The notes beneath the pieces were generated by a model, which was not told the DNA's origin, did no database searches, and saw nothing but the letters and a program-made list of their open reading frames with translations. A stretch of 50,227 nt of DNA from contig JALEZF010000041.1 in NCBI GenBank assembly GCA_022773025.1, positions 1 to 50,227 of the forward strand, given 5' to 3'. The stretch is from Clostridium sp. (GTDB lineage Bacteria; Bacillota; Clostridia; Clostridiales; Clostridiaceae). Numbering within the stretch: the first letter of the stretch is position 1; each line of letters starts with the position of its first letter. The position numbers and the translations under genes are program-made. Below are positions 7,445 to 46,495 of this stretch, one piece after another.

Positions 7445-7476
7445 AAATATAAAAGGTACCGGACTTTGCCGATACC
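7445..7476 (-). terminator. Terminator of the sulfatase/PTS operon
   Basis: Minus strand GGTATCGG / CCGGTACC hairpin followed by TTTTATATTTT, directly after lacC. Confidence 0.8.
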
Positions 7477-7496
7477 CTAAAAAATTTATGCTTACC

Positions 7497-8423
7497 TTAT
7501 AACTTTTCTATTTTTATTTTTTCTAACAATTCATTTACTATGTTTTCTTTTACAGAGCCTGTCTCTTCTTCCATGGCATTGGCTGTTCCACAGGCTGAGG
7601 CATACTTTAACATTTGTTCTATAGAATAGCCTCTCTCTAAGGATACAGCAATTCCTGCTACATAGGAATCCCCAGATCCTACAGGATTTATAGCTTTAAC
7701 CTTTGGAACTGTTACCTTGTAGAACTTATCTTTATAGCCAGCTATGGACCCTTTGCTGCCAAGAGAAATTACTACAAGTTCTATACCCTTTTCTTGAAAT
7801 CTTTTGATTTCTTCTAGAGCATCACTGTCACTTTCTATTTTTCTTCCTGTCAAAGCTTCTATTTCATCTCTATTTGGTTTTATGAAAAATGGCTTTGCAT
7901 TTATTCCACTTTTTAAAAGCTCCCCGCTTGTATCAAGAAGAAACTTTTTTCCTTTATTCTTTGCTATTGTAATAAGCTCACTATAAAAATTTTTTGGAAC
8001 ATTTCTTGGAACACTGCCAGATGCTACGATGACATCGCTATCTTCAAGGAGTTCTTTGTATTTTTTTACAAATTCACTTTGCTCCTCCATGGAGACTTCA
8101 GGTCCTGGTTCTAGTATTTCTGTCTGCACTAAATCCTCTGTAATAATGGCTAGACATTCCCTTGTTTCACCATTCACCTTTACAAAGTCATTTTTTATTT
8201 TATATTCTGTGAGCTTTTCTTCTATAAATTCTCCTGTTTTACCCCCTAAGAATCCTGTTGCAATGCACTGCTCTCCTAAAATTGTAGCTACATTTGCAAC
8301 GTGTATTCCCTTGCCTCCAGGTGTATTTTCAACTTTAAGAGCTCTCATAACAGTACCCTTTTCAAGTTCTGTCATTTCATATCTTTTATCTACAGATGCA
8401 TTAAGATTTATTACTAATATCAT
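7497..8423 (-). CDS. lacC: Tagatose-6-phosphate kinase (PfkB family)
   Basis: Cytoplasmic sugar-phosphate kinase of 308 residues, converting tagatose 6-phosphate to tagatose 1,6-bisphosphate with ATP. It shows the PfkB pattern: N-terminal MILVINLNASVDKRYEM, substrate loop NTPGGKGIHVANVATILG (about 33-50), TGRKIESD, and the C-terminal anion-hole/catalytic motif INPVGSGDSYVAGIA (about 244-258) with the catalytic Asp. 1-Phosphofructokinase is closely related and cannot be excluded by motif alone, but the adjacent LacA, LacB and tagatose-bisphosphate aldolase genes point to LacC. It is the last gene of the operon, 16 nt after the aldolase gene, and is followed by a terminator. Confidence 0.85.
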   Translation of the reverse strand: MILVINLNASVDKRYEMTELEKGTVMRALKVENTPGGKGIHVANVATILGEQCIATGFLGGKTGEFIEEKLTEYKIKNDFVKVNGETRECLAIITEDLVQTEILEPGPEVSMEEQSEFVKKYKELLEDSDVIVASGSVPRNVPKNFYSELITIAKNKGKKFLLDTSGELLKSGINAKPFFIKPNRDEIEALTGRKIESDSDALEEIKRFQEKGIELVVISLGSKGSIAGYKDKFYKVTVPKVKAINPVGSGDSYVAGIAVSLERGYSIEQMLKYASACGTANAMEEETGSVKENIVNELLEKIKIEKL

Positions 8424-8439
8424 TTTCTTACCTTAGCTC

Positions 8440-9312
<873 letters not shown>

Positions 9313-9828
9313 CTAGTCGTGATATTCTCCTCTTTCCCATTTCTCGTTAAACTCATCAAAGAAGTGTTCATCACCATTTGCATAGTCTTTTTCAATCATA
9401 TTATCCATTTTTTCGATAAGTCTTTTATTTTCCTCTGTTGGCTTATATTCTGTTTCTAAAAATACATCGATGATATTTTCCATAAGACCTATGCCTGTGA
9501 TTCTTCCTCCAAAGCCAAGGATATTTATGTTAAGCTCTTCTTTTGAATATCTTGCTGTTTCAATATCTCTTACTAGTGCTACTCTTGCCCCTTTAATTTT
9601 TGCTGCTGAATTTGTTATACCAACTCCTGTACCACAAATTATTATTCCAAGGTCTGCTTCTCCATTAACCACTTTTTCTGCAGCAGCTTTTCCGTATATT
9701 GGGTAATGAGTTCTTACATTATCATAAGTTCCATTGTCTATTACTTCATGTCCTTTTGATTTTAAATACTCTACAACGCTGTTTTTTACATTTGTAACTA
9801 TATGGTCACATCCAACTGATATTATCAT
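9313..9828 (-). CDS. lacB: Galactose-6-phosphate isomerase subunit LacB
   Basis: 171 residues, the usual LacB length, of the RpiB/LacAB isomerase family. With LacA it converts galactose 6-phosphate to tagatose 6-phosphate. It begins [20 protein letters not shown], with the family motif [20 protein letters not shown] (catalytic Cys in CGTGVG) and [20 protein letters not shown]. The N- and C-terminal regions match LacB rather than RpiB, including the longer tail ending WERGEYHD. It is 12 nt from lacA, and the two are expected to form a heteromeric enzyme. Confidence 0.93.
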
Positions 9829-9840
9829 CTTATTTTCCTC

Positions 9841-10269
9841 CTATGCCATCTTATTTAACATATCTACTCTTATTTGATGTCTTCCGCCTGAATACTCAGA
9901 GGCAACAAATTTTTCTGCAATTCTCTTTCCAATCTCTAAGCTTGTAACTTTAGATCCCATTGCTATAACTGAGGTGTTATTGTGATCTCTAGTCATTTTA
10001 GCTGAATGCTCATCTGCTACTTGAGCACAAACTATATATTTATGCTTTGCACATATATTAAAGGAGCCTGTACCATATTCATCTATTACAATTCCTCTAG
10101 CACCTTCCTTATTAAGAATTGAATCACATACTAAGTTTGATGCGTCACAAAAATCTACGTCTTTTCTTTCAGTCTTATCTACGACTTCATAACCTTTTTT
10201 AATTAAGTCTTCCTTTATTCCATTCTTAAACTCTACGCTTTTGCTATCTGATGCAATTATTACCTTCAT
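9841..10269 (-). CDS. lacA: Galactose-6-phosphate isomerase subunit LacA
   Basis: 142 residues, the standard LacA length, and the partner of LacB. It starts MKVIIASDSKSVEFKNGIKE. The place of the RpiB catalytic Cys motif is taken by IDEYGTGSFNICAKHKYIVC, as is usual in LacA, which lacks the active Cys at this point. It ends SGGRHQIRVDMLNKM, a LacA signature. Presence of both subunits means the operon's phosphorylated sugar is galactose 6-phosphate, not N-acetylgalactosamine 6-phosphate, for which a deacetylase and deaminase would be needed. Its start has AGGAGG a few nt upstream. Confidence 0.93.
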   Translation of the reverse strand: MKVIIASDSKSVEFKNGIKEDLIKKGYEVVDKTERKDVDFCDASNLVCDSILNKEGARGIVIDEYGTGSFNICAKHKYIVCAQVADEHSAKMTRDHNNTSVIAMGSKVTSLEIGKRIAEKFVASEYSGGRHQIRVDMLNKMA

Positions 10270-10283
10270 CGAAAATCCTCCTA

Positions 10284-11762
10284 TTATTTCAAATTTAGTC
10301 TTTCAAACTGCTCCTTTGGAGCTTCCATTTCTTCTAGTCCTCTTTTCAAAAGTTCTATATATTTCTTTTCTAGCTCTTCATCCCTTAATGGGCTTACTTG
10401 TCCATAATCTTCAATTATATTAAACAGTTTACTTTCAGCTGTATATTTTAAAGCATCGCTAACATTGTCAAGTATTGAAGGGTTCTCTATTGGAATCTTA
10501 TATACAGGATAATCTGTTCTCTTTAAGAATCTGCCAATTTCTATTTCCGACTCTCTTCCCTTTCCTAAATACTTTCTAATTGTTGTTGGTATGCATGTGT
10601 ATTCAAAGCATGGTTTGTTTTCTTTGTTTGGAGCTCTGAAATATGTGTACTCACCGTCAGTTACATTCATAGCTATTCCGTGATAACCATATAATGCATA
10701 TTCCCTTTCAAATGGCTTTTCTTCAGCTACTATTTTCCATGACATCCCTTGTACATCTTTTGGAATATCCACACCTGAATATTCTAAAACTGTAGGCATT
10801 ATATCTATATTTTGAGTAAGTGCATTTATTCTTTTCCCTGCCATTTCTCCTTTAGGGAAACGTACCATTAGAGGAATGTGAGAAAGTTCATTGTACATAT
10901 GCATATAATTCTTTCCAAAGTAATTTCTCTCCCCTAAGAAATATCCATGGTCTGTTGTAACTATTATTAAAGTGTCTTCATACATATTAAGAGCCTTTAG
11001 CTTGTCTATAAGCTTTCCAAAATGTTTATCTGTCATTGTAAGCAATGCAGCATATCTCTTGTTTATATAATCTAAAGCTTCCTCTGGTACATCCACCTCT
11101 TTATAGTTAGGTGTTTCAAAATATGGTCCTTCATATTTGCAGCCATACATCTCCATATATTCTTCTGGTACATCAAAAGGTTCGTGAGGATCAAAAGTCT
11201 CTACCATTAAGAAGAAATCATCATGGTCTTTGTTGTCCTCTAGCCACTGACAGGCTGCATTAAAGGTTTTTGGAGTTGGATATTCATCTTCCTTTCTCTC
11301 CCATTTCGTTCTGTTCCACTGATACTGCTTTCTTAGCTTTCCATAATAGTTGTCAGGCATAAAAGATGGATCATCTATTTTTGATATCCAAGGATCCCCT
11401 TCTTGACCTCTGTAAAAATCCCAAGTGGAAAATTGCTGAACATAGTCCTCTCCACCAAGCCTAAAATAATGAGGATGATCCGTTACTATGTGACTGAACA
11501 CATTATTTTCTGCTAAAACCTTTGGAAGTGTTATATCAAATGGTTCTATAGGTCCCCATGATCTCTCTAAAAAGTTTAGTCGCCCAGTAAGTATATCTCT
11601 TCTTGCTGGCATACATGGTGCTGAGCCCACCCAATGGTTATCAAATGTAGCTGCTTCTTTTGAAAATCTAGTTATATTAGGAGTCTTAACCCAAGTATTT
11701 TCATTGTAGACTTCCATCATATTTCTCTTTAATGTATCCATTAAAACTACCACTGTTCTCAT
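10284..11762 (-). CDS. Cys-type sulfatase, predicted cytoplasmic
   Basis: A 492-residue type I sulfatase of the alkaline-phosphatase superfamily that hydrolyses sulfate esters. The key sequence is SAPCMPARRDILTGR, in which Cys50 of C-M-P-A-R is the residue oxidised to C-alpha-formylglycine. The catalytic domain includes the metal site in LMDTLKRNMM, TDHPHYF and TTDHGYFLGERNYFGK. There is no signal peptide or lipobox: the N-terminus MRTVVVLMDTLK is the first strand of the fold, so the enzyme should act in the cytoplasm. The Cys form needs the oxygen-independent maturase encoded divergently at 14743-15870. It sits between the PTS genes and lacA, implying desulfation of an imported, probably already phosphorylated sugar. 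The exact substrate is unknown. Confidence 0.92.
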   Translation of the reverse strand: MRTVVVLMDTLKRNMMEVYNENTWVKTPNITRFSKEAATFDNHWVGSAPCMPARRDILTGRLNFLERSWGPIEPFDITLPKVLAENNVFSHIVTDHPHYFRLGGEDYVQQFSTWDFYRGQEGDPWISKIDDPSFMPDNYYGKLRKQYQWNRTKWERKEDEYPTPKTFNAACQWLEDNKDHDDFFLMVETFDPHEPFDVPEEYMEMYGCKYEGPYFETPNYKEVDVPEEALDYINKRYAALLTMTDKHFGKLIDKLKALNMYEDTLIIVTTDHGYFLGERNYFGKNYMHMYNELSHIPLMVRFPKGEMAGKRINALTQNIDIMPTVLEYSGVDIPKDVQGMSWKIVAEEKPFEREYALYGYHGIAMNVTDGEYTYFRAPNKENKPCFEYTCIPTTIRKYLGKGRESEIEIGRFLKRTDYPVYKIPIENPSILDNVSDALKYTAESKLFNIIEDYGQVSPLRDEELEKKYIELLKRGLEEMEAPKEQFERLNLK

Positions 11763-11861
11763 ATAATTTCTCCTCCCAATAACTGAAATTTAGATACTCA
11801 TAAAATTTACTCAACTTTTGCAAATCAATTTCTATAAGAATCTATATTTTCTTCCCTTAAT

Positions 11862-11902
11862 AAAAGTTAGATGTGAACTTCAAAGCTTCAAAGTTCACAT
11901 CT
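11862..11902 (-). terminator. Hairpin between EIID and sulfatase genes
   Basis: Minus strand AGATGTGAACTT / AAGTTCACATCT, a 12-bp perfect stem with a 10-nt loop, followed by AACTTTTATT. It lies inside the operon 6 nt after the EIID stop. It could be a partial terminator or a processing/stability element that sets PTS mRNA above catabolic mRNA. Confidence 0.6.
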
Positions 11903-11907
11903 TCTTT

Positions 11908-12720
11908 TTATGCTATGATTCCTGCCATTGATAATAATACAGCTATAATTAATACTCCAAATATTACCCATACAGCATTTTTACCGTTTGATTTCTTTAA
12001 TAAATAATAGCAAAGGAAGGTTAGCGCAAGTGGAATTAAACTTGGCATTACTTTATCAAGCATATCTTGAAGCATTAAAGGATTTTCTCCTGCTGCTATT
12101 GATACATCAAGTTTTACTTTTACAGTTGTGGCAATTAATCCGCCAACTACTATAACACCTAATACATTTGCCATGTTGGCTAATCTATCAAAGATTCCTT
12201 TACCATTGTCTGCATCACCTAGTATCTCCATTCCCTTAGAATAACCTTTCATTACTCCAAAGTACTTTACAGGAATATACAGACAGTTAATCATTAAAAA
12301 CATTACTATAGCACCTAATATATTGCCATCTATAGCAAAAGCTGCACCTATGGAACCTGCTATAGGCATCCATGTAAAGTTAAGCATACTATCTCCGATA
12401 CCAGCTAAAGGTCCCATTAAGCTTGTCTTCATTGCTATTACAGATTCTTTTTGTTCTTCATCTGTTGTTTCCTCCATAGCTGATGTTATTCCTAGAATGA
12501 AAGGCATCAAAACTGGATGTGTATTGAAGTACTCTAAATGCCTCTTCATGGCATTTACCCTCTCTTCTTTTGGTTTATTTTTATAAAGCTTCTTTAGTAT
12601 AGGTTTTAATATATAAACTGTACTTAAACTTTGCATTCTCTCATAGTTATGTGACATTTGACATAATTGAGATCTCCAGAAAACTTTTTTCAAATCACTT
12701 TTATCTATTAAATTAGCCAT
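11908..12720 (-). CDS. PTS mannose-family EIID component
   Basis: Membrane subunit of 270 residues that, with EIIC, forms the sugar channel of a mannose/sorbose/galactosamine-type PTS. It begins with KSDLKKVFWRSQLCQMSHNY, typical of ManZ/AgaE, and contains MKRHLEYFNTHPVLMPFILG, EEQKESVIAMKTSLMGPLAG and GDSMLNFTWMPIAG. C-terminal membrane segments follow. Its start overlaps the EIIC stop (TAATG), with the ribosome binding site GGAGG inside the end of the EIIC gene, indicating translational coupling. Confidence 0.92.
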   Translation of the reverse strand: MANLIDKSDLKKVFWRSQLCQMSHNYERMQSLSTVYILKPILKKLYKNKPKEERVNAMKRHLEYFNTHPVLMPFILGITSAMEETTDEEQKESVIAMKTSLMGPLAGIGDSMLNFTWMPIAGSIGAAFAIDGNILGAIVMFLMINCLYIPVKYFGVMKGYSKGMEILGDADNGKGIFDRLANMANVLGVIVVGGLIATTVKVKLDVSIAAGENPLMLQDMLDKVMPSLIPLALTFLCYYLLKKSNGKNAVWVIFGVLIIAVLLSMAGIIA

Positions 12721-13520
12721 TATAAATCCCAGCCTCCTTCTATATCTTCATTAGAATCAGCACCTACTACCGCTGGTGATGTATGTCCTTCTTTTTCTTT
12801 ATTAGTCATTATTAAATCATAGATTCCTGCAAAACAAGCACCTATTAATGCTAATGCTAATGTAGGAAGATTTAAGTAAGTTGTTAATGTAAAGCCTAGA
12901 ATTAAGAACATCCACATATTTTTCTTTAGCATCATAGTTAAAAGCATTGCTATACCTACTGCTGGAATAGCCTTTGAAGCCACCGTTAATCCAGTCATTA
13001 CGCTAGCAGGGATTGCTGCCATAATTGAATCGATTACACTTGACCCTAAAAATACAGCTATAAATGTTGGTAGAGCTCTACTTAAGAATATTAAAGCTGC
13101 TCCTATATACTGAAGCTTATCTATCTTGTCAAAATCTCCAGTTTCCGCAATCTTATCAGCTTTGTGAACTAATGAAATACTTATAGTCTTGCATAGCATA
13201 TCTAGTTGTTGTACTAATAATGAAACCGGTATCGCGATTGCTACCCCTGTTGCTACTCCTCCACCTGACAAAATACCTATTGCAACTCCAACTACTGAAC
13301 CTGAAATTACATCTGGTGGTACATAAGAGCCAACATTATTAACTCCAAGCCACATAAGTTCTAAGGTAGCTCCAATTATAAGTCCTTGAGTCAAATCACC
13401 TAAAATAAGTCCTGTTACTACACCTGCTAGTAATGGTTTTCTAAAGCCTAAATGTGGTCCATACTGGTCCCACGCACATATGCCCGCCCAAGCAGCTACT
13501 AATAATGCTTTGATTAACAT
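12720..13520 (-). CDS. PTS mannose-family EIIC component
   Basis: Integral membrane protein of 266 residues, the EIIC (ManY/AgaW-like) translocator. It has GAWAGICAWDQYGPHLGFRK-like N-terminal sequence (starting AAWAGICAWDQYG), then GVVTGLILGDLTQGLIIGAT with LELMWLGVNNVGSYVPPDV, the signature of the mannose-family EIIC. Several further hydrophobic helices follow, ending in a polar cytoplasmic tail. The gene is 36 nt from the EIIB gene and overlaps EIID by one base. Sugar specificity cannot be read from motifs; the following genes point to a galactose derivative. Confidence 0.92.
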   Translation of the reverse strand: MLIKALLVAAWAGICAWDQYGPHLGFRKPLLAGVVTGLILGDLTQGLIIGATLELMWLGVNNVGSYVPPDVISGSVVGVAIGILSGGGVATGVAIAIPVSLLVQQLDMLCKTISISLVHKADKIAETGDFDKIDKLQYIGAALIFLSRALPTFIAVFLGSSVIDSIMAAIPASVMTGLTVASKAIPAVGIAMLLTMMLKKNMWMFLILGFTLTTYLNLPTLALALIGACFAGIYDLIMTNKEKEGHTSPAVVGADSNEDIEGGWDL

Positions 13521-13555
13521 GATAACCTCTCCTTTTTATAAAACTTATTAATCCT

Positions 13556-14026
13556 TTAAATCATATCCTTCATATATATGACATCATCTTTAGGTACCAT
13601 TTGTATGAATACCTCAATACCTTTGTCTATGAGTTCTTTAAATGCTTTTTCTTCTTCCTTTGTTACTGAAATTGACTTTGTAAGTCTTCTTCTAGTTTCG
13701 TTGTATCTCATGCCCCCTGCATTTACCTTCTCAATATGTAGTCCTCCGTTTACTACCTTTAATACATCTGTTGATGTAGTGAACAAAAGTAAAGTATCTT
13801 TCTTTATTGGATTTTTCTTTATAACTTCTATAAATTGGTCTACTCCAAAAACTAATACTCTAACTCCTGCTGGTGCTGCAAGTCCTACAACTGATTTTTG
13901 AACTGGATCCTTGCTGACTTTGTCATTAATTATTAAGACCTGCTCTACACCATAGTCTCCAATCCAAGTTGAGCACACTTGTCCATGAATTAATCTGTCG
14001 TCGATTCTTACTAATTTAATTCCCAT
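13556..14026 (-). CDS. PTS mannose-family EIIB component
   Basis: Cytoplasmic phosphotransfer protein of 156 residues. It receives phosphate from EIIA on His14 in the motif RIDDRLIHGQV and passes it to the incoming sugar. The rest matches the EIIB fold: VLIINDKVSKDP, LAAPAGVRVLVFGV, LLLFTTSTDVL and the NAGGMRYNE turn. It is 156 residues long and separate from EIIA, as in Aga/Sor-type systems rather than the fused ManX. It is the second gene after the sigma-54 promoter. Confidence 0.93.
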   Translation of the reverse strand: MGIKLVRIDDRLIHGQVCSTWIGDYGVEQVLIINDKVSKDPVQKSVVGLAAPAGVRVLVFGVDQFIEVIKKNPIKKDTLLLFTTSTDVLKVVNGGLHIEKVNAGGMRYNETRRRLTKSISVTKEEEKAFKELIDKGIEVFIQMVPKDDVIYMKDMI

Positions 14027-14046
14027 ACCTTTCCCCTCCTAAAATT

Positions 14047-14478
14047 TTATAAATTCAATTCTTCCTGGGTGTTTTGTGATGATAGTTTTTCATTTATATT
14101 TGTAAATGCATCTTTATAGACTTCTTCTAATTTAACTTTAATCTCTTCTGTTGGAAGTTCTCTGTTTAGTAATAGTTCTAATAGCACTGGAAGATTAAAT
14201 CCTGTATAGACTACTACATCACATCCATCTAATATCATTCTTGATCCAGCATTACACGGAGTCCCTCCAAATATATCTGCTAAAACAATTACTTCTCTCT
14301 CATTTTTTAATTCCTTATAAGCTCCCCTAATTTCCTCCAAAACATTCTCTAAATCCTTATCATCGGTTACTGAGATTATTTTATAATTTTCTTGCTTTCC
14401 TACAATCATTTCCGCACTTTTCATGGCATATTCTGCAAAGTAGCCATGACTTATCAATATGATTCCTATTTCTTTCAT
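14047..14478 (-). CDS. PTS mannose-family EIIA component
   Basis: Cytoplasmic protein of 143 residues and first gene of the operon. The phosphorylation site is His11 in IGIILISHGYFAEYA. Further family motifs are VIVLADIFGGTPCNAGSRM and TGFNLPVLLELLL. It accepts phosphate from HPr and passes it to the EIIB encoded 20 nt downstream. It has a strong AAGGAGGG site upstream of ATG 14478. A sigma-54 promoter lies 34-50 nt upstream. EIIA domains of this family are also the model for the regulatory EIIA-like domain in the LevR-type activator encoded at 15877. Confidence 0.93.
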   Translation of the reverse strand: MKEIGIILISHGYFAEYAMKSAEMIVGKQENYKIISVTDDKDLENVLEEIRGAYKELKNEREVIVLADIFGGTPCNAGSRMILDGCDVVVYTGFNLPVLLELLLNRELPTEEIKVKLEEVYKDAFTNINEKLSSQNTQEELNL

Positions 14479-14511
14479 CTGTCTATTCCCTCCTTACATA
14501 CTTATTTTAAA

Positions 14512-14528
14512 AGCAATTGCTGTGCCAA
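14512..14528 (-). promoter_or_regulatory. Sigma-54 (-24/-12) promoter of the PTS/sulfatase operon
   Basis: Minus strand TTGGCAC-AGCAA-TTGCT. The invariant GG (14526-14525) and GC (14514-14513) are exactly 10 nt apart, matching TGGCAC-N5-TTGC. Start of transcription is expected near 14502, giving a short leader before EIIA. The divergent LevR-type activator fits. Confidence 0.9.
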
Positions 14529-14569
14529 AATCAGTATCATCAATGGTTGCAACGTTTTCATCACTTCTC

Positions 14570-14628
14570 AATACTCATCGATACTGTTTGAAATCTTCTG
14601 ATACTATTGAAATAATACTCTTTGAGAC
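14570..14628. promoter_or_regulatory. Repeat cluster, candidate activator binding sites (UAS)
   Basis: Four ATACT-centred repeats on the plus strand: AATACTCATCG (14570), GATACTGTTTGAAAT (14580), GATACTATTGAAAT (14600) and AATACTCTTTGAGAC (14614). The ATACT cores start at 14571, 14581, 14601 and 14615. They lie 40-100 nt upstream of the -24 element, where enhancer sites for a sigma-54 activator are expected. Binding is inferred. Confidence 0.5.
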
Positions 14629-14669
14629 AAAAAGTTTTTCTATGAAATTTATCTCTGCATTAATTTTCC

Positions 14670-14698
14670 TTGTAAAATTTAGAGAATGAACTTATCAT
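14670..14698 (+). promoter_or_regulatory. Candidate promoter of the anSME/activator genes
   Basis: TTGTAA (14670-14675), a 17-nt spacer, TATCAT (14693-14698): a moderate sigma-A promoter 45 nt upstream of the maturase ATG. Confidence 0.5.
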
Positions 14699-14742
14699 AG
14701 ATAATGAAATCTCTTTATTAAATTTAAATTGGAGGTAATCAA

Positions 14743-15870
14743 ATGAAAAAAAATTTAAGTCTGATGATAAAGCCATCTTCAAGCAAGTGCAATTTAAAAT
14801 GTGCATATTGCTTTTATCACTCCATAGCTGATGCAAGGGATATAAAGGACTATGGTTTTATGTCACTTTCTACTCTACAAGAAATAATCTTTAAAGTAGA
14901 TGATTACTGTAATGGCGGAACCTGCTCCATTGGTTTTCAAGGTGGTGAATCCACTCTAATTGGTTTAGATTTTTATAAGGAACTTGTAAAGTATGCAGAA
15001 AACGTTGAGAATAATACAAGGTTTTCTTTCTCCATACAAACTAACGGCACCACTCTTGATGATCAGTGGGGGGAGTTTTTGAAAGAGCATAATTTTCTTG
15101 TAGGAATATCTCTTGATGGAAATAAAGATATACATAATTTAAACAGAGTTGATTTGAAAAACGACGGAACCTTTAACAAGGTGGTTAAAGGTATTAACAT
15201 ACTAAAAAAATATAATGTAGACTTTAATATACTTACTGTTGTAACATCTACCTTGTGCAAAAAAATCCATGGTGTCTATAATTTTTATAAGAAGAATAAC
15301 TATAGGTATCTTCAATTTATTCCTTGTCTAGAACCTTTAGAAAATACCTCGATGACCTTAAATAAATATTCTATTACACCACAGGAATATGGAAATTTTC
15401 TAATTGAGCTATTTGATTTATGGTATAAAGACATGTTAAGTAATGATTATGTAAGTATAAGGTTATTTGATAATATCTTAGGATTATTTTTGAATAAGGA
15501 GTATGAAGCTTGTGATATGAAGGGAATATGCTCATGTCAGCATATTATAGAAAGTGATGGCTCAATATATCCCTGTGATTTCTATACTTATGAAAGTTAT
15601 AATATTGGAAATATCCTTACAGATTCATTTGATGATATCCATAATAACTCAAAGACCATTGGTTTTATCCAGCACTCTAAAAATGTAAATTCTCAATGCA
15701 TGAACTGTAGATACCTTTCAATTTGTAGAGGTGGCTGTAGACGTCATCGTGAAAATCAAGATAATGACCTTAATTATTTTTGCGAATCCTACTATAATTT
15801 TTATTCACACTCACTTGACAAGTTTAGGCATCTTGCACTTGTTTTAGGGAACTCTTCTTTAAGGAGGTAG
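14743..15870 (+). CDS. Anaerobic sulfatase-maturating enzyme (radical SAM, SPASM)
   Basis: A 375-residue radical SAM enzyme that oxidises the active-site Cys (or Ser) of sulfatases to formylglycine without oxygen. The SAM-cluster motif is C16-NLK-C20-AY-C23, near the N-terminus, followed by FQGGEST, SIQTNGTTL and VGISLDG. The C-terminal SPASM region holds the auxiliary cluster cysteines: CDMKGICSCQHIIESDGSIY, PCDFYTYES, then CMNCRYLSICRGGCRRH and FCESYYNFY. Length and motif order fit anSMEs such as the characterised C. perfringens enzyme. Its obvious client is the Cys-type sulfatase at 10284-11762, encoded in the divergent operon. The GGAGG site upstream and a TTG-started activator gene 6 nt downstream indicate a two-gene operon. 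Confidence 0.95.
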   Translation: MKKNLSLMIKPSSSKCNLKCAYCFYHSIADARDIKDYGFMSLSTLQEIIFKVDDYCNGGTCSIGFQGGESTLIGLDFYKELVKYAENVENNTRFSFSIQTNGTTLDDQWGEFLKEHNFLVGISLDGNKDIHNLNRVDLKNDGTFNKVVKGINILKKYNVDFNILTVVTSTLCKKIHGVYNFYKKNNYRYLQFIPCLEPLENTSMTLNKYSITPQEYGNFLIELFDLWYKDMLSNDYVSIRLFDNILGLFLNKEYEACDMKGICSCQHIIESDGSIYPCDFYTYESYNIGNILTDSFDDIHNNSKTIGFIQHSKNVNSQCMNCRYLSICRGGCRRHRENQDNDLNYFCESYYNFYSHSLDKFRHLALVLGNSSLRR

Positions 15871-15876
15871 ATAATA

Positions 15877-18714
15877 TTGTTACGAATTGATCTTGTAAAA
15901 AATTATATACACAATTTCTGCAAAACTTTGTCCATGGATGATATAAAAAAATCTCCTTCAATAGGCATATGTTCTTTGGACATAGTTGAAAACCTTAACA
16001 TACTTAGAAACAATGCTTCTGCAGATTTGAACAAGCTTCATAAAGATGGATCTCTTATTAAAATCAAAGGAAAACCAACAAAATATTTTGATAAAACTTA
16101 TTTTGAAGAATTATTTCAAGTGTTTTTAGGTGATGAAGCTATTGAGTGTTCTTCCCTAGAGGATTTGATGCCTTTAAGCAATTCTTCAAATCATGTTGAG
16201 GAATCTATCAATGCAGCTAATTCAGACCCTTTTAATAGATTAATAGGCGCTAGCCATAGCTTATCCGCCATAGTTAAACTTGCAAAATCATCAATACTCT
16301 ACCCCAATGGTCTTCACACAATACTTCTTGGGGAATCAGGAGTTGGTAAAAGTCTTTTTGCTGAAATCATGTATGAATATGGAGTTCAAAACAATGTGTT
16401 TAGCAAAAATTCTTCTTTTGTAGTTTTCAACTGTGCAGATTATGCAAATAACCCCAATCTTCTTGTATCTCAACTTTTTGGTTCGGTAAAGGGTGCCTAT
16501 ACTGGAGCCGATAGTGATAAAAAAGGACTTATAGAAGAAGCTGATGGAGGAGTTTTATTTTTGGATGAAATCCATCGTCTCCCACCTGAGGGACAAGAAA
16601 TGCTTTTCTTATATATTGATAAAAAGAAGTTTAGAAGACTTGGAGAAACAAGCTCTGAAAGAACAGCTAAGGTTCTCATAATAGCAGCTACAACAGAAAA
16701 TCCTAGTTCTATGCTTTTAACTACTTTTTTAAGAAGAATTCCTTCATCAATAAGGATTCCTAGCTTAAAGGACCGTACCCTTAGCGAAAGACTTATGCTT
16801 GTGAGAAATCTCTATGGAATGGAATCTAAAAAGATTAATATGCCTATTCTCGTTGATAAAGATTGCTTGTCTGACTTAATGCTTTACAATCCTCATGGAA
16901 ATATAGGCCAGCTAGCAAGTGACATTCAGCTTTCAGTTGCCCGTTCATATTTGGATAGCAGACTCAATAATTTAGACAAGGTTCATATAACAAAGGAATC
17001 TCTACCTCTTTATACAAACAACACATTATCCAATATCGATATATCAACAAGGCAAAAGGTTGAACTTCTTTTAGATAAAGATGAATATACATTTTCACCG
17101 GGAAGCCAAATATCTAAAACCACTCCTACTTCTACCTATGATTTTGTAAAATTCTACAATGATCAACTCACTCTATTAGGGGAGGACAATATTGACATAA
17201 AAAAAGTTTTCTCAGATTATACCCAATTAATAGCAAAAAATCTTACAATGCAAAAGATGTATCCGGATTTTTTAGATGATGAGACTTCAGAAATAATATC
17301 TACTTTGTCTGACATATTGTACGAAGACTTAAACCTAATAATCGATAGAAGTTCTTATACAGCACTAGCTTTATACCTTAAAAACTTAAAAGATCTTACT
17401 GCCAATAATAGAAAAATCAATAAAACTTCCGATTTATTAGATATACCTTTGGAAATACAGTCAGTATGCAAAAAATTAGTGAAAACTCTTGAAATGAAAT
17501 TTAACATATACTGCCCAGCTCAAGAACTTAAAAACCTTATGATAATAATAAATTCTTTAAAATCAAAGGAAACTTTCGACTCCGTTGGAATTATGATAGC
17601 TGCTCATGGAGAATCTTTGGCTAGTAATATAGCTGATGTGGCTAATGAACTTTTAAGCATTAATTTTGCTCTAGCTGTGGACATGCCTTTAACTGAAGAT
17701 GCTGAAAAAATACTTCCTATATTTTTAGAAAAGTTAAAACCGGGAACCTTTAAAAAAGGCTTAATTCTTTTTGCAGATATGGGCTCTTTAACAACCCTTG
17801 ATGAACTTATAAAGGATAAAACAGGTATAAATGTTGTCACAGTTAATTCAACCAATATATTATTAGTTATTGAAGCTATTAGAAAATCTATATTTCTAAA
17901 AAATGATATAGATGATATCCTTTATGATTTGATATCCTTAAACAACAAGTTGTCTTATAATTTTAATAAAAAGATAGAAACACACCTTTCTATTAACAAA
18001 AAAAGAGTTATCTATACAGTATGTAATTCAGGGGAAGGCGTTGCTCATTATCTTCACGAAAATCTTACAGATATACTGAAAAGCAATAATATTTATGATA
18101 TTGATATAATCCCCTTAAATCTAGAAAGCAAAACTCAGCTTAGAGACATAATACATCAAACATCTTTAGATAAAAAAACCATAGCCGTTGTAGGAAGTAT
18201 TGACCCTGGTACTAATGATATTCCTTTTATATCTTTAGAGGAAATCGTACTTCATAGCGGAGTAAGCAAGCTTTTGTCTCTCATAGGAATAAAAGAGGTT
18301 TCTTTTGATAATAAGCTTGCAAAGAGTCTAACGAAAGATATAACAATAAATATAACTTGTGATGCTGTAGATAAATATCTTACAATTTTCTCAGCTTACA
18401 AAATCAAACCTCTTATCTTTAATTTTATTAATGTTATTGAAGATAATTTAAAGATAACTATGACGAACTCAAGTATAACAAAAATATTCATTCATTTATC
18501 CTGTGCCATAGAGAGAATTCTTCTTAAAGATTTTGTTTTGACCCCTCAGGAGGAAATGTCAAGCTATATAATGGCTAATGAAAAGTATGTAACTGTCACA
18601 AACAAAGCTCTAGAATCTGTTACTAATGCTTTAAATATAGTAATACCTACAAATGAACTATACTACATATGTGAAATAGTAAAAGATTCCTTTAAACAAG
18701 CTACATCACTATAA
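15877..18714 (+). CDS. LevR-type sigma-54-dependent activator with PTS regulation domains
   Basis: A 945-residue transcriptional activator. Order of domains: N-terminal winged-helix region (about 1-85); AAA+ ATPase (about 115-350) with Walker A GESGVGKS, the sigma-54 contact loop GAYTGAD (a GAFTGA variant) and Walker B GGVLFLDEIHRLP; a PRD-like helical domain (about 420-540); an EIIA-Man-like domain (about 565-690) with AAHGES at the phosphorylatable His; an EIIB-like segment (about 708-800) with VIYTVCNSGEG; and a second PRD (about 830-940) with IHLSCAIERI. It starts with TTG at 15877, 6 nt after the maturase stop and just after GGAGG. In this family, phosphorylation by HPr and by the cognate EIIB tunes activity to sugar supply. 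It should activate the -24/-12 promoter at 14512. Confidence 0.92.
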   Translation: MLRIDLVKNYIHNFCKTLSMDDIKKSPSIGICSLDIVENLNILRNNASADLNKLHKDGSLIKIKGKPTKYFDKTYFEELFQVFLGDEAIECSSLEDLMPLSNSSNHVEESINAANSDPFNRLIGASHSLSAIVKLAKSSILYPNGLHTILLGESGVGKSLFAEIMYEYGVQNNVFSKNSSFVVFNCADYANNPNLLVSQLFGSVKGAYTGADSDKKGLIEEADGGVLFLDEIHRLPPEGQEMLFLYIDKKKFRRLGETSSERTAKVLIIAATTENPSSMLLTTFLRRIPSSIRIPSLKDRTLSERLMLVRNLYGMESKKINMPILVDKDCLSDLMLYNPHGNIGQLASDIQLSVARSYLDSRLNNLDKVHITKESLPLYTNNTLSNIDISTRQKVELLLDKDEYTFSPGSQISKTTPTSTYDFVKFYNDQLTLLGEDNIDIKKVFSDYTQLIAKNLTMQKMYPDFLDDETSEIISTLSDILYEDLNLIIDRSSYTALALYLKNLKDLTANNRKINKTSDLLDIPLEIQSVCKKLVKTLEMKFNIYCPAQELKNLMIIINSLKSKETFDSVGIMIAAHGESLASNIADVANELLSINFALAVDMPLTEDAEKILPIFLEKLKPGTFKKGLILFADMGSLTTLDELIKDKTGINVVTVNSTNILLVIEAIRKSIFLKNDIDDILYDLISLNNKLSYNFNKKIETHLSINKKRVIYTVCNSGEGVAHYLHENLTDILKSNNIYDIDIIPLNLESKTQLRDIIHQTSLDKKTIAVVGSIDPGTNDIPFISLEEIVLHSGVSKLLSLIGIKEVSFDNKLAKSLTKDITINITCDAVDKYLTIFSAYKIKPLIFNFINVIEDNLKITMTNSSITKIFIHLSCAIERILLKDFVLTPQEEMSSYIMANEKYVTVTNKALESVTNALNIVIPTNELYYICEIVKDSFKQATSL

Positions 18715-18850: not shown

Positions 18851-19414
18851 TTAGATTATCATATAGGTAATACATCCTATTAAACCACATCCAAACATAA
18901 CTGCAATTGGACTTGGTTTTTTCTTTCTTAATACTATTAAAGCTCCTATGAAAAGAATAATTGATACTGGATTTAAGGACTTTATATCTAAAGAAAATCC
19001 ACCCTCTCCCCAAAAGGCTAAAATCAAAATTGATAATCCAGCTGATGCAATAAGTGCTACAACTGCTGGTCGCAATCCTTCAAGAACTCCTTGAATAACT
19101 GCTAAATTTTTGTACTTTTTATATAGCCAAGCAAGAATCATTACGATAATGCAAGATGGCACTACACATCCAAACGTCGCAATTAATGCTCCTGAGATAC
19201 CTGCAATCCTAGTTCCTACAAAGGTTGATGAATTAATTGCAATAGGTCCTGGCGTCATTTCAGAAATTGTAATTAAATCAGTAAACTCTGTGAGGCTTAA
19301 CCAATGATGCATGTCAACAACTTGATTTTGAATTAATGGCAAAGCTGCTAATCCTCCACCTATACTGAATAACCCCACTTGAAAAAAGCTCCAAAACAAT
19401 TCTATATATATCAT
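18851..19414 (-). CDS. chrA: Chromate transporter family protein, second half-size subunit
   Basis: A 187-residue single-domain CHR protein; the family includes ChrA chromate exporters, and short CHR proteins work as pairs. The signature is FFQVGLFSIGGGLAALPLI followed by QNQVVDMHHWLS, TISEMTPGPIAINSSTFVG and GCVVPSCIIVMILAW, with about five or six membrane helices. The ATG overlaps the stop of the upstream CHR gene by 4 nt. The true substrate in anaerobes is often unknown, so chromate is only the family name. Confidence 0.85.
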   Translation of the reverse strand: MIYIELFWSFFQVGLFSIGGGLAALPLIQNQVVDMHHWLSLTEFTDLITISEMTPGPIAINSSTFVGTRIAGISGALIATFGCVVPSCIIVMILAWLYKKYKNLAVIQGVLEGLRPAVVALIASAGLSILILAFWGEGGFSLDIKSLNPVSIILFIGALIVLRKKKPSPIAVMFGCGLIGCITYMII

Positions 19415-19989
19415 GCTTTAATGCTGCTCCTTTCTTTTTTTTCATAATACAGTACTTTTAAAGCTCCAATAATACCACATACTAAAATGATATACATTAC
19501 ATTTATCTTTAATACAAAGGTAGCAATAAATGCTCCTATCATAACTAACATTGATATAATAGATTTAGTCTTCACTACATTGCTTCCTAAATTTATAACA
19601 ACATCAGTAATTACAGCTGCTACACCAGCTTGCATTCCTTTTAAAACATAATTTACTATGACATTGTCTCTAAATAGCGTATAGAACATAGAGATTATAG
19701 AAAGGATAATTAGTGGCGGCATCACAGTTCCTAATATTGATACTATTGCCCCAATCTTTCCTGCTACATTATATCCTAGTAGTATAGATGCATTGACAGC
19801 AACTGCTCCTGGAGAAGATTGAGCTATGGCTGCAAGATTAAGCATCTCCTCCTCATCTATCCATTTTAAATCATCTACAAATTTCTTTTGCATAAGTGGT
19901 ATAATTACAAACCCTCCTCCAAATGTGAATGCACTTAAATAAAAAGTTGATGTAAAAAGCTTTAAATATATTTTTCCTTTTTCGTTCAT
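19411..19989 (-). CDS. chrA: Chromate transporter family protein, first half-size subunit
   Basis: The partner CHR protein, about 192 residues from the ATG at 19989, which follows GGAGGG by 7 nt; an upstream in-frame start at 20019 lacks such a site. Motifs are LSAFTFGGGFVIIPLMQKKF, AIAQSSPGAVAVNASILLGY and GTVMPPLIILSIISMFY. Paired short CHR proteins have opposite membrane orientations and probably form a heterodimer. The LysR regulator gene at 20098 is divergent and is the likely regulator. Confidence 0.85.
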   Translation of the reverse strand: MNEKGKIYLKLFTSTFYLSAFTFGGGFVIIPLMQKKFVDDLKWIDEEEMLNLAAIAQSSPGAVAVNASILLGYNVAGKIGAIVSILGTVMPPLIILSIISMFYTLFRDNVIVNYVLKGMQAGVAAVITDVVINLGSNVVKTKSIISMLVMIGAFIATFVLKINVMYIILVCGIIGALKVLYYEKKERSSIKA

Positions 19990-20097
19990 GGAAAATCCCT
20001 CCTCTATTTCAATATACATCTTGTTGTAATATAATAAAAATAGTATAATTATATAAAGTTTATAATATTTTTATTATGTATTTTATGGAGGATACTA

Positions 20098-20982
20098 ATG
20101 ACTTTACGACATTTAAAAATCTTTATAACCGTTTGCGAAACTGGAAGTGTAACCTTAGCTGGAGAAAAGCTTTTTATTGCTCAACCCTCTATAAGCCTTG
20201 CTATATCAGAACTTGAGGATTACTATGGAGTAAAATTATTTGATAGAATATCTAAGAGACTACATATAACAGACATAGGCAAACAATTTCTTCAGTATGC
20301 AACTCATATTATCTCCCTATTTGATGAAATGGAAAACACAATGAAAAATTGGGATGCAATAGGCACACTTCGTGTAGGAACAAGTATAACTATTGGAAAT
20401 TATCTCTTGCCTAATTTTGTAGATGAGTTTAAGGTAACTCATCCTAAGATAAAGATTAATGCACTGATTGACAACTCTGAAACTATTGAAAATGCGGTAT
20501 TAAAAAATGAAATTGATATAGGTTTTATAGAAGGTTTTGCTCATAGTCCGTATATAGAAAGCCAGCACTTTATGGACGATGATTTAGTCCTAATCTGCTC
20601 ACCTATTCATCCTTTTGCTAAAAGTAAACTAATTAAAATAGATGATTTAAAAGATGTAGATTTTATAATGCGTGAAAAAGGTAGTGCTGGCAGAGAAATT
20701 TTCGATGATATTCTTGATCTTCACGGTATTAAAGCTTCTATACTTTGGCAGAGTTCAAGTACTCAAGCTATTGTAAGAGCTGTAAGCCATAATATTGGTT
20801 TATCTGTTCTGCCTTATCTTTTAATAAAAGATAGTTTGAAAAGAAAGGAAATATCTACTGTTGATATAGAGGGGATTTCTTTGACAAGAAAATTTTCTAT
20901 TATTTATCACAAAAATAAATATCTTACTCAAAGCGCTAATGATTTTATTAATCTTGCCTATAAAAATCACAGCCAATACTAG
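20098..20982 (+). CDS. LysR-family transcriptional regulator
   Basis: A 294-residue LysR regulator. The N-terminal winged helix-turn-helix (about 1-60) reads MTLRHLKIFITVCETGSVTL and AQPSISLAISELEDYYG. The effector-binding domain begins near residue 88 (GTLRVGTSITIGNYLLPNF). The last codons are part of a strong terminator hairpin. The gene is divergent from the paired CHR transporter genes across about 100 bases, the usual arrangement for a LysR regulator and its target. The effector is unknown. Confidence 0.88.
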   Translation: MTLRHLKIFITVCETGSVTLAGEKLFIAQPSISLAISELEDYYGVKLFDRISKRLHITDIGKQFLQYATHIISLFDEMENTMKNWDAIGTLRVGTSITIGNYLLPNFVDEFKVTHPKIKINALIDNSETIENAVLKNEIDIGFIEGFAHSPYIESQHFMDDDLVLICSPIHPFAKSKLIKIDDLKDVDFIMREKGSAGREIFDDILDLHGIKASILWQSSSTQAIVRAVSHNIGLSVLPYLLIKDSLKRKEISTVDIEGISLTRKFSIIYHKNKYLTQSANDFINLAYKNHSQY

Positions 20983-45443: not shown

Positions 45444-46319
45444 TTATTTTTCGAATCTTCTTGCATATCCGCAAGTTTTACATAGATCTTCCACGGCCTT
45501 TCTACCAGAAAAACCATCATACATAGCTTTAGCCCTTTTACTTTCTAAAATATTCTCTAAGCTTTCTTCAAATACATTTCCTAAAGGAATGTTTCCATCT
45601 GAATCAAGGCAACATGGTACAACTGTTCCATCCGCTAAGATTCCTATATGTTGTCTAAGTCCATAGCAAAAAGCATTGTCCCCTATTCTTTTTCCATTTA
45701 TATCTGGCCATTGAAATTTTTCTGCTGCTTCCAAAAATATTTTATCTGAAATCTTAACGCTATTCTGATTATGTAGCATTTCTTTTATATCCATATGAGA
45801 ATTCAAAGTTTCTTTGAGAAGGTCTGCTATTTTATCATTAAGGTTGTTACAGCCTTTTATCAAATCACTGTCTCCATTCCAAAGTCTTAGTTCGCATATA
45901 ACACCATTTTCATCATGAGCCTTCTTAACAAAATTCACTATATCATTGATGTATACTTCTAAGTCTACCTCTTGATCATTAGCTTCAAAGCTATGAAGAG
46001 ATATGCTTATTTTTCTTAAAGCTTTCGATGAAATAAGAATATCTTCATTTTTCCTTATAAGAGTTCCATTAGTGGTAAGGTTCACTTGAAATCCATATTC
46101 CTTCGAAATATCTAAAAAACTTTTCAAATTAGGATTAAGCAGCGGCTCTCCCATAAGATGAAGACATATATAATCGGTGTATGGCTTTATTTCTTTTGCT
46201 ATATGTAAAAATTCCTCTGACGTCATAAACTTTAGTTTCCTATTTGTCTTAGGACAAAAATTGCAGTTCATATTGCAAACATTGGTTATCTCCACGTAGA
46301 TTCTTTTAAATTTCTTCAT
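45444..46319 (-). CDS. Radical SAM/SPASM-domain protein
   Basis: About 291 residues. The SAM cluster motif is C15-NMN-C19-NF-C22 (VEITNVCNMNCNFCPK). HLMGEPLLNPNL follows, then LTTNGTLI and KISISLHSF. The C-terminal SPASM-type half holds FCYGLRQHIGILADGTVVPC with CLDSDGNIPLGNVFEESLEN and CKTCGYARRF, the ligands of an auxiliary cluster. It resembles Fe-S oxidoreductases of the MoaA/PqqE/SkfB type. Substrate is unknown: no small peptide or sulfatase gene lies beside it. The ATG at 46319 is 6 nt after GGAG. It is divergent from pflB, but it is not the PFL activase, which lacks a SPASM domain. Confidence 0.82.
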   Translation of the reverse strand: MKKFKRIYVEITNVCNMNCNFCPKTNRKLKFMTSEEFLHIAKEIKPYTDYICLHLMGEPLLNPNLKSFLDISKEYGFQVNLTTNGTLIRKNEDILISSKALRKISISLHSFEANDQEVDLEVYINDIVNFVKKAHDENGVICELRLWNGDSDLIKGCNNLNDKIADLLKETLNSHMDIKEMLHNQNSVKISDKIFLEAAEKFQWPDINGKRIGDNAFCYGLRQHIGILADGTVVPCCLDSDGNIPLGNVFEESLENILESKRAKAMYDGFSGRKAVEDLCKTCGYARRFEK

Positions 46320-46495
46320 GTTCATCTCCAAATCTGTTTATTATTCCAATAATAAACATTAGTACAGTATTTTTTATCACAATTTATAGTGCTTACTCCT
46401 TTATTATACACCATTTCCATTACTTTTAGCCATATGAGTTTTTCTTTTTATTTTTTGCTGTTTCAAATTTATTTTAAACTGTTTTTAAATTTTTC

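Follow-up and report, generated by a model that had tools for sequence, protein, structure and literature searches.

A phosphotransferase-linked sulfatase cluster in Clostridium sp. that probably serves import and degradation of sulfated galactose

Introduction

Sulfatases linked to a phosphotransferase system (PTS) have been in print since at least 2012, when they were reported from pneumococcus without a known substrate. The island SPH1922-SPH1930 of Streptococcus pneumoniae encodes a PTS and a sulfatase, together with a sulfatase-modifying enzyme and a TauE family protein, according to the sections of two reports that deal with it (PMC3302838; PMC3283741). In those sections, the authors of PMC3302838 proposed uptake of a sulfated sugar and export of the sulfur product, and PMC3283741 leaves the cooperation of PTS and sulfatase open. 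A sugar array, run on a mutant of a strain with an incomplete island, gave no substrate, a fluorogenic sulfate gave no sulfatase activity, and mutants were less fit in mice (PMC3302838; PMC3283741). Here we describe an 11-gene cluster in which a mannose-family PTS, a sulfatase and its maturase are joined to a tagatose pathway, and which probably serves the import and degradation of sulfated D-galactose with a free O6. It lies on a 50,227-nucleotide stretch of DNA from Clostridium sp. (contig JALEZF010000041.1, assembly GCA_022773025.1), called the window below; the genome of the window is 98% complete, in 114 contigs.

Like the window cluster, the pneumococcal island holds a PTS, a sulfatase and a maturase-type enzyme in one unit. 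Compared by description, the island differs in having a lactose-family PTS with two IIC components and a ROK-type regulator, whereas the window has a mannose-family PTS and a LevR-type regulator; the sections on the island describe no LacAB, aldolase or kinase. The pneumococcal combination of sulfatase, maturase, TauE and PTS is complete in two relatives of the window cluster, in C. paraputrificum and Clostridium sp. MAG.206, but TauE is missing at the locus in the window and in C. cadaveris. Two Enterococcus plasmids (E. faecium pRBWH1.1, NZ_CP033207.1; E. faecalis, LR962562.1) also carry a mannose-family PTS (IIA to IID), a Cys-type arylsulfatase and a SPASM/anaerobic maturase, but their sulfatases belong to another branch, with 21-22% identity to that of the window over part of the protein. 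Unlike the window, pRBWH1.1 has a GntR regulator and an annotated beta-galactosidase; the Enterococcus stretches have no lacA or lacB match, although a gene annotated as lacD is found about 11 kb beyond the sulfatase of E. faecium. The two Enterococcus loci (L076, 966-12745; L077, 9945-17242) represent an independent joining of PTS and sulfatase; in E. faecium, insertion sequences break up the operon. The chondroitin sulfate operon of Proteus vulgaris, again compared by description, has putative sulfatase and putative PTS genes as well, but the part of the report that covers it adds chondroitin lyases and an unsaturated glucuronyl hydrolase, acting on glycosaminoglycan disaccharides (PMC9067506). 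Judging from the pneumococcal, Enterococcus and P. vulgaris systems, the coupling of PTS and sulfatase seems to have arisen more than once.

Clostridiaceae operons for tagatose 6-phosphate share lacA, lacB, aldolase, kinase and a PTS with the window, but have no match to its sulfatase, maturase or LevR, and a DeoR-like regulator adjoins them (by eye). Cytoplasmic sulfatases of the same family stand beside ATP-binding cassette (ABC), major facilitator superfamily (MFS) or other importers, for example in Niallia, Streptomyces and Paracoccus. They resemble the window sulfatase in having no signal peptide by eye, but their substrate enters unphosphorylated, and no mannose-family PTS or tagatose module was found there. 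Operons of the LevR/LevDEFG and DagR/Dag types share a sigma-54 activator with EIIA and PRD domains adjoining a mannose-family PTS; their catabolic genes differ from those of the window. On a cold-seep plasmid of Fusobacteria bacterium ZRK30 (L073, 9998-19571), an anaerobic maturase is located near NanE, a PTS EIIC, a PfkB kinase and a tagatose-bisphosphate aldolase, and no sulfatase is annotated in the part of that stretch that was viewed.

A search of the open-access literature, with subscription papers and preprints outside its range, found no paper on this operon or on a PTS-coupled sulfo-galactose pathway. The sequence-only reading of the window went too far in stating that it knew of no described pathway with this gene combination: PTS, sulfatase, maturase and TauE have been known together in pneumococcus since 2012, without a substrate, and the Enterococcus plasmids have a mannose-family PTS, sulfatase and maturase. 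The cluster is a variant of an existing, uncharacterised PTS-sulfatase type and not a new kind of system, and its lower pathway points to the substrate.

Gene Content of the Cluster

All 11 open reading frames (ORFs) described in the sequence-only reading were found at their positions in an ORF check of the window, and the family match of each is much stronger than chance would give. They form a minus-strand operon of nine genes, from 14478 down to 7497, and a divergent plus-strand unit of two genes at 14743-18714. Family assignments were made with the curated cut-offs of Pfam and NCBIfam.

14047..14478, minus strand, PTS IIA of the mannose family (PF03610, EIIA-man, 7.8e-24)
13556..14026, minus strand, PTS IIB of the mannose/sorbose family (PF03830, PTSIIB_sorb, 3.4e-49)
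12720..13520, minus strand, PTS IIC (PF03609, EII-Sor, 7.9e-78)
11908..12720, minus strand, PTS IID (PF03613, EIID-AGA, 2.7e-92)
10284..11762, minus strand, apparently cytoplasmic Cys-type (formylglycine) sulfatase (PF00884, 2.6e-35; C50-M-P-A-R54)
9841..10269, minus strand, LacA, galactose-6-phosphate isomerase subunit (NF006380, 171.0 bits, cut-off 164)
9313..9828, minus strand, LacB, galactose-6-phosphate isomerase subunit (NF006381, 275.4 bits, cut-off 234)
8440..9294, minus strand, class II tagatose-1,6-bisphosphate-type aldolase of the GatY family (F_bP_aldolase, 9.7e-108)
7497..8423, minus strand, PfkB-family sugar-phosphate kinase (PfkB, 1.7e-58)
14743..15870, plus strand, anaerobic sulfatase maturase, radical SAM/SPASM (TIGR03942, 382.6 bits, cut-off 349.45)
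15877..18714, plus strand, LevR/DagR-type sigma-54 activator with EIIA and PRD domains (PF00158, PF03610, PF00874; TTG start after AAGGAGG)

The curated NCBIfam cut-offs were passed by name for LacA, LacB, the tagatose-bisphosphate aldolase and the sulfatase maturase, and the Pfam family LacAB_rpiB was matched twice in the operon, by LacA and LacB. With IIA, IIB, IIC and IID all present, the transporter belongs to the mannose family of PTS (TC 4.A.6); its subunits exceed the mannose-family Pfam cut-offs and fall under every NCBIfam cut-off. The Pfam and NCBIfam results thus bear out a complete mannose-family PTS, a sulfatase, LacA, LacB and a class II aldolase in one minus-strand operon, and a divergent unit with a maturase and a sigma-54 PTS activator. 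The operon genes are tightly spaced, with the exception of a 145-base gap between the IID and sulfatase genes, and a ribosome-site-like sequence precedes most of them.

Three further species, C. cadaveris, C. paraputrificum and Clostridium sp. MAG.206, have all 11 genes as well, with order and orientation unchanged and 72-97% protein identity. The window and C. cadaveris copies share 87.6% DNA identity over 11.3 kb, so that the window represents a lineage related to C. cadaveris but distinct from it.

Tagatose Module

LacAB isomerises galactose 6-phosphate, which makes the lower half of the cluster informative about its substrate. LacA and LacB passed the models listed above and fell under the cut-offs of the stricter models TIGR01118 and TIGR01119. 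The aldolase passed both NF009374 (GatY; 529.5 vs. 383 bits) and TIGR01858 (501.4 vs. 443.55). The kinase passed the 1-phosphofructokinase model TIGR03828 (308.1 vs. 292) and shares 56-75% identity with the kinases that accompany lacAB in 10 other operons; its place in the operon suggests that it is a tagatose-6-phosphate kinase.

LacB was detected at E<=1e-50 in 20 of 218 genomes of the order. Setting aside the four that carry the sulfatase operon leaves 16 genomes, of which 11 were viewed at one locus each. lacA and lacB are adjacent in all 11 loci, with the aldolase and kinase genes close by in 10 (L170 is the exception). The accompanying PTS is of galactitol type in 7 loci and of lactose type, together with a GH1 enzyme, in 4, the types having been checked with Pfam in L163 and L166 and otherwise judged by sequence likeness. 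No ORF at the 11 loci matches the window sulfatase, a search that might overlook sulfatases of other branches. The recurrence of lacA, lacB, aldolase and kinase with galactitol- or lactose-type PTS indicates that these are the enzymes of the normal galactose/lactose route of the bacterial family via galactose 6-phosphate, in support of the tagatose pathway of the sequence-only reading. One genome (G134; L162, 3184-8498) has two lacAB pairs, separated by a galactitol-type PTS, with LacB 53% and 71% identical to that of the window.

In each of the four sulfatase-bearing genomes, LacB at the same threshold gave one match, that of the operon itself. Outside the operon, the LacAB Pfam family (PF02502) is represented by one presumed RpiB in each of the four, and the window genome has a further partial match (58.8 bits) in a 255-aa frame. 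A galactokinase over the cut-off is present in all four genomes, so plain galactose has another route. Taken together with the single LacB per genome, this makes the operon the only galactose-6-phosphate route found in the organism, and that route is tied to a sulfatase.

Sulfatase, Maturase and Sulfate Exit

The sulfatase scored 122.6 bits against a curated PF00884 cut-off of 25. Ten putative active-site residues, C50, R54, D9, D95, H96, H98, H193, D271, H272 and K284, are identical in all 27 rows of the family alignment; the eight outside the CxPxR motif have, by analogy, putative roles in binding metal and sulfate. The protein begins with M-R-T-V-V-V-L-M-D9, which by inspection leaves no room for a signal peptide, and the enzyme looks cytoplasmic. 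PF00884 gave six match rows in the window genome, and CxPxR occurs solely in the operon sulfatase. Three of the others are in frames of 624-630 aa and are LtaS-like by length, and the remaining two are weak rows in one 437-aa frame, all without CxPxR. The proposal of a cytoplasmic sulfatase is supported by inspection of its N-terminus, and the enzyme is the only CxPxR member among the PF00884 matches of its genome.

Formylglycine sulfatases require a maturase. That of the cluster carries CNLKCAYC (CxxxCxxC) together with Radical_SAM and SPASM (PF13186) domains, and it is the only protein above the TIGR03942 cut-off in the window genome, in agreement with the proposal that it is dedicated to this sulfatase. 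Elsewhere in the window, a small radical SAM-like protein of 295 aa (45444-46331) carries CNMNCNFC.

In a tree of the 27 rows, the four PTS-coupled sulfatases form one clade with support of 100/100. Basic residues at R403, R415 and K483 are present in all four and in none of the 23 other rows, and R101 of the clade is basic in 2 of the 23. These extra residues (R101, R403, R415 and K483) could hold a 6-phosphate, but the comparison sets four close orthologues against 23 distant rows, and ancestry alone could yield such columns. The other family members examined have an importer as neighbor, of ABC, MFS or another type; the importers of L024 and L025 are annotated, and the rest were judged by eye. 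A maturase of the anaerobic type is found near relatives in L046, L127 and L128 (the latter two by eye), and a formylglycine-generating enzyme is annotated in L024; three relatives have TauE (L023, L129) or SulP (L128) among their transporter neighbors. From these importers, maturases and exporters, the family looks like one of private, intracellular enzymes, within which the clostridial clade has switched to a PTS.

TauE/SafE is a sulfite/sulfate exporter family. In C. paraputrificum (L039, 6661-7515) and MAG.206 (L040, 6464-7249), a gene of this type lies within the divergent unit, between the maturase and IIA (PF01925, 109 and 101 bits). In the four genomes, a TauE-type match lies within 8 kb of 7 of the 9 CxPxR sulfatase genes; the window genome and C. 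cadaveris provide the two exceptions, both at this locus. The chance tail for this count is 5.6e-12 when the loci are treated as independent, though they are not: the same operon was counted in several species, other loci are shared between species, and TauE loci were merged by hand. The count also includes one partial TauE match (G062 C10) and one sulfatase gene lying in two frames (G086 C99). The nearness of TauE genes to sulfatase genes supports the release of sulfate in the cytoplasm. Second Cys-type sulfatases (CSPSR) occur in C. cadaveris and C. paraputrificum (L097, L093), each with a nearby TauE-like ORF, and in MAG.206 another sulfatase gene (CAPSR), which lies in two frames that overlap, has a TauE-like gene and an anaerobic maturase in its neighborhood (L174, 3100-8689).

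For the window species, in whose genome TauE-type genes are present elsewhere, a second candidate exporter was considered. A split chromate-transporter pair, ChrA1/ChrA2 (18851-20019), followed by a LysR gene (20098-20982), lies directly after the LevR gene, and the pair is likewise found in C. cadaveris. The chromate-transporter family is common in Clostridiaceae (89 of 116 genomes sampled), so its closeness to LevR means little and is probably due to chance.

Proposed Pathway

We infer the identity of the sugar, the position of its sulfate, the order of the reactions, the phosphorylation at C6 and the role of the exporter from the gene content described above. Mannose-family PTS commonly phosphorylate hexoses at C6. 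The PTS would import sulfated galactose and phosphorylate it at C6, and the maturase would convert Cys50 of the sulfatase into formylglycine. The matured cytoplasmic sulfatase would then strip the sulfate from 6-phospho-sulfo-galactose, giving galactose 6-phosphate. LacAB would isomerise this to tagatose 6-phosphate, the PfkB kinase would form tagatose 1,6-bisphosphate, and the aldolase would cleave it to triose phosphates. In two of the four species sulfate would leave through the TauE/SafE-type exporter; in the window species some other exporter would serve. The LevR-type activator would sense PTS phosphorylation and switch on the sigma-54 promoter.

The sulfate should be on O2, O3 or O4 and not on O6, since a sulfate on O6 would block phosphorylation at C6 and leave LacAB without a task. 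Among these positions O3 is favored, because the named hosts are gut-associated, with strains of C. cadaveris and C. paraputrificum from preterm infants (PMC5647805), and because animal glycans are known to contain 3-O-sulfo-galactose (PMC8175384). The suggestion that the substrate is 3-O-sulfo-galactose from animal glycans is tentative, and we give it about half the weight of the general proposal. For the enzyme itself, specificity for 6-phospho-3-O-sulfo-galactose is a prospect to which we give slightly less than an even chance; if so, this would be the first known case of a sulfatase acting on a PTS product. To our knowledge, 6-phospho-3-O-sulfo-galactose is an intermediate of no described pathway, and the literature search turned none up.

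Several observations weigh against this proposal. The kinase did not pass the LacC model TIGR01231 (279.1 vs. a cut-off of 409.55), so that of the earlier claim of LacC the PfkB-family kinase stands and the assignment by curated model does not. Sorbose- and fructose-type PTS of the mannose family act on C1, and phosphorylation at C6 is thus not universal. Homology gives no specificity for the PTS, as its nearest IID relatives (50%, 46% and 47%) adjoin a rhamnosidase, or NanE, SIS and ceramidase-like genes, in unrelated, uncharacterised pathways. The 11-gene unit has no gene that would release sulfated galactose from a glycan, and in the window and C. cadaveris this locus lacks the TauE-type gene. 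The system had been called self-contained, and this description fits its uptake and degradation genes but not the release of the sugar or, in the window copy, the exporter gene of its two relatives. Many sulfatases have D-D, D-N and K-x-H motifs where the window enzyme has D9-T10, D271-H272 and no K-x-H, and with D-H and a missing K-x-H the substrate class is unreadable from the residues. The best two matches among solved structures are sulfatases (9s03, 5g2v), and the third is a phosphonate monoester hydrolase (4upk, 7.7e-27). The matches are partial and of mixed specificity (N-acetylglucosamine-6-sulfatase, phosphonate hydrolase, mucin sulfatase and choline sulfatase), and reading the substrate from sulfatase homology was given up for this reason. 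Among PTS relatives, two stretches (L160, 2724-10927; L161, 1417-8573) from two different families have another LevR-type activator and mannose-family PTS beside a ceramidase-like and an SIS protein, with NanE in L160 (Pfam was run on L160 only), and belong to an uncharacterised PTS pathway.

Alternative Explanations

Of the other explanations, the best placed is that the PTS imports a sulfated galactoside, such as 3'-sulfo-lactose or sulfo-lacto-N-biose, which a phospho-beta-galactosidase encoded elsewhere cleaves after import. In 4 of the 11 other lacAB operons, the tagatose genes are accompanied by a GH1 enzyme and a PTS of lactose type, which fits this idea, as does the annotated beta-galactosidase beside the mannose-family PTS and sulfatase of the E. 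faecium plasmid. However, no glycosidase gene is present within the 11-gene unit in any of the four species, the search having covered the unit and not the rest of the genomes, and we regard the galactoside as unlikely, though worth keeping in mind.

The arrangement of the operon bears on a second possibility, that the sugar handled by the PTS and tagatose module is galactose without sulfate, or a hexose related to it, and that the sulfatase has some other target that reaches the cytoplasm. The lower pathway is indeed the ordinary galactose/lactose route of the family. But the sulfatase gene is located between IID and lacA in all four species, galactokinase is already present in the genomes, and the unit has no second import system for a sulfated compound; this makes the separation of sulfatase and sugar quite improbable.

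A third reading, which we hold to be very improbable, makes the enzyme a phosphodiesterase of the formylglycine type or a phosphonate monoester hydrolase, and the sugar a galactose phosphodiester or phosphonate ester. This would agree with the third-best structure match, 4upk, and with D9-T10 and D271-H272 in place of D-D and D-N, but the top two structures, 9s03 and 5g2v, are sulfatases, the unit includes a TauE family gene in two of the four species, and TauE or SulP is found near three relatives.

Least probable is sulfated N-acetylgalactosamine (GalNAc; e.g., from chondroitin or mucin), which enzymes encoded elsewhere would deacetylate and deaminate before it joined the tagatose route: the best curated match of IIC is the GalNAc transporter AgaW, under the cut-off (211 of 300 bits), and the section of the P. 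vulgaris report on its chondroitin operon describes putative sulfatase and PTS genes (PMC9067506), but LacAB would have no task on that route, yet lacA and lacB are retained in all four operons, and the unit has no deacetylase or AgaS-type gene.

Regulation

The import and degradation of sulfated galactose proposed here would be under the control of the divergently encoded activator. It has the sigma-54 AAA domain and the PTS regulatory domains of the LevR family, and its target operon has a sigma-54 promoter. Its best model is that of DagR (NF047795), at 522.1 bits against a cut-off of 1400; as this is far under the cut-off, the activator is not a DagR member and is best described as LevR/DagR-type, without a close named family. 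The following features were found around the operon.

14510..14530, minus strand, sigma-54 type (-24/-12) promoter TGGCAC-N5-TTGCT, ending 33 bases 5' of the IIA start codon
14571..14619, minus strand, four AGTAT boxes (14619, 14605, 14585, 14575), upstream of the promoter
14547..14560, minus strand, imperfect cre-like (catabolite-repression) site TGAAAACGTTGCAA, between the boxes and the promoter, its likeness to the cre consensus judged by eye
11869..11902, minus strand, strong 15-bp hairpin between the IID and sulfatase genes (hairpin scan)
7453..7478, minus strand, hairpin like a rho-independent terminator at the operon end (hairpin scan)

The promoter pattern TGGCAYNNNNNTTGCW has a single match in the 50 kb window (14512-14527), against 0.15 expected, and TGGCAC/T-N5-TTGCT precedes IIA in all four operon-bearing species. 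This promoter of its own agrees with the reading of the nine genes as a single operon. AGTAT/ATACT occurs six times in the intergenic stretch, compared with 0.62 in resampled sequence, and the 20- and 10-base spacing of the boxes is retained in the three relatives, and thus in all four species. The excess is weakest in MAG.206, where 0.03 of resamples reach the observed count. The boxes are likely upstream activating sites for the LevR-type activator, and they lie where binding of such an activator would be expected. The hairpin at 11869-11902 is retained in C. cadaveris and is partial or poor in C. paraputrificum and MAG.206 (alignment, by eye). It may be a processing or attenuation site that sets PTS against sulfatase expression.

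Distribution

At E<=1e-30, 4 of 225 genomes of the order have a match to the sulfatase, and each of these carries the operon; the counts are 10 of 391 in the class sample at the same threshold and 6 of 398 in the phylum sample at 1e-60. The genome of the window is among the matches in all three samples. Among 24 distinct sulfatase loci outside the window, mapped with the proteins of the window, PTS and tagatose genes accompany the sulfatase only in C. cadaveris, C. paraputrificum and MAG.206; several of the other 21 are on short contigs that cut their context, four more loci were viewed by eye, and G885, G889 and G910 were left out. A scan of named genomes placed the three operon species among 12 relatives, using two short peptide patterns that favor close relatives. 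In searches of plasmids and phages with the sulfatase (547 and 22 records), the relatives were all below 60% identity.

Conclusion

The lower pathway of the cluster names galactose 6-phosphate as the likely product, so that it predicts the substrate class and lets the idea be tested with purchasable or preparable sugars. If the prediction is true, host sulfated sugars would be imported intact and desulfated privately within the cell, and a phospho-sulfo-sugar would be a real metabolic intermediate. Gut clostridia would thereby use sulfated galactose derived from mucin or sulfatide without feeding desulfated galactose to competitors. The release of sulfate in the gut would then depend on an exporter, with a bearing on the supply to sulfate reducers.

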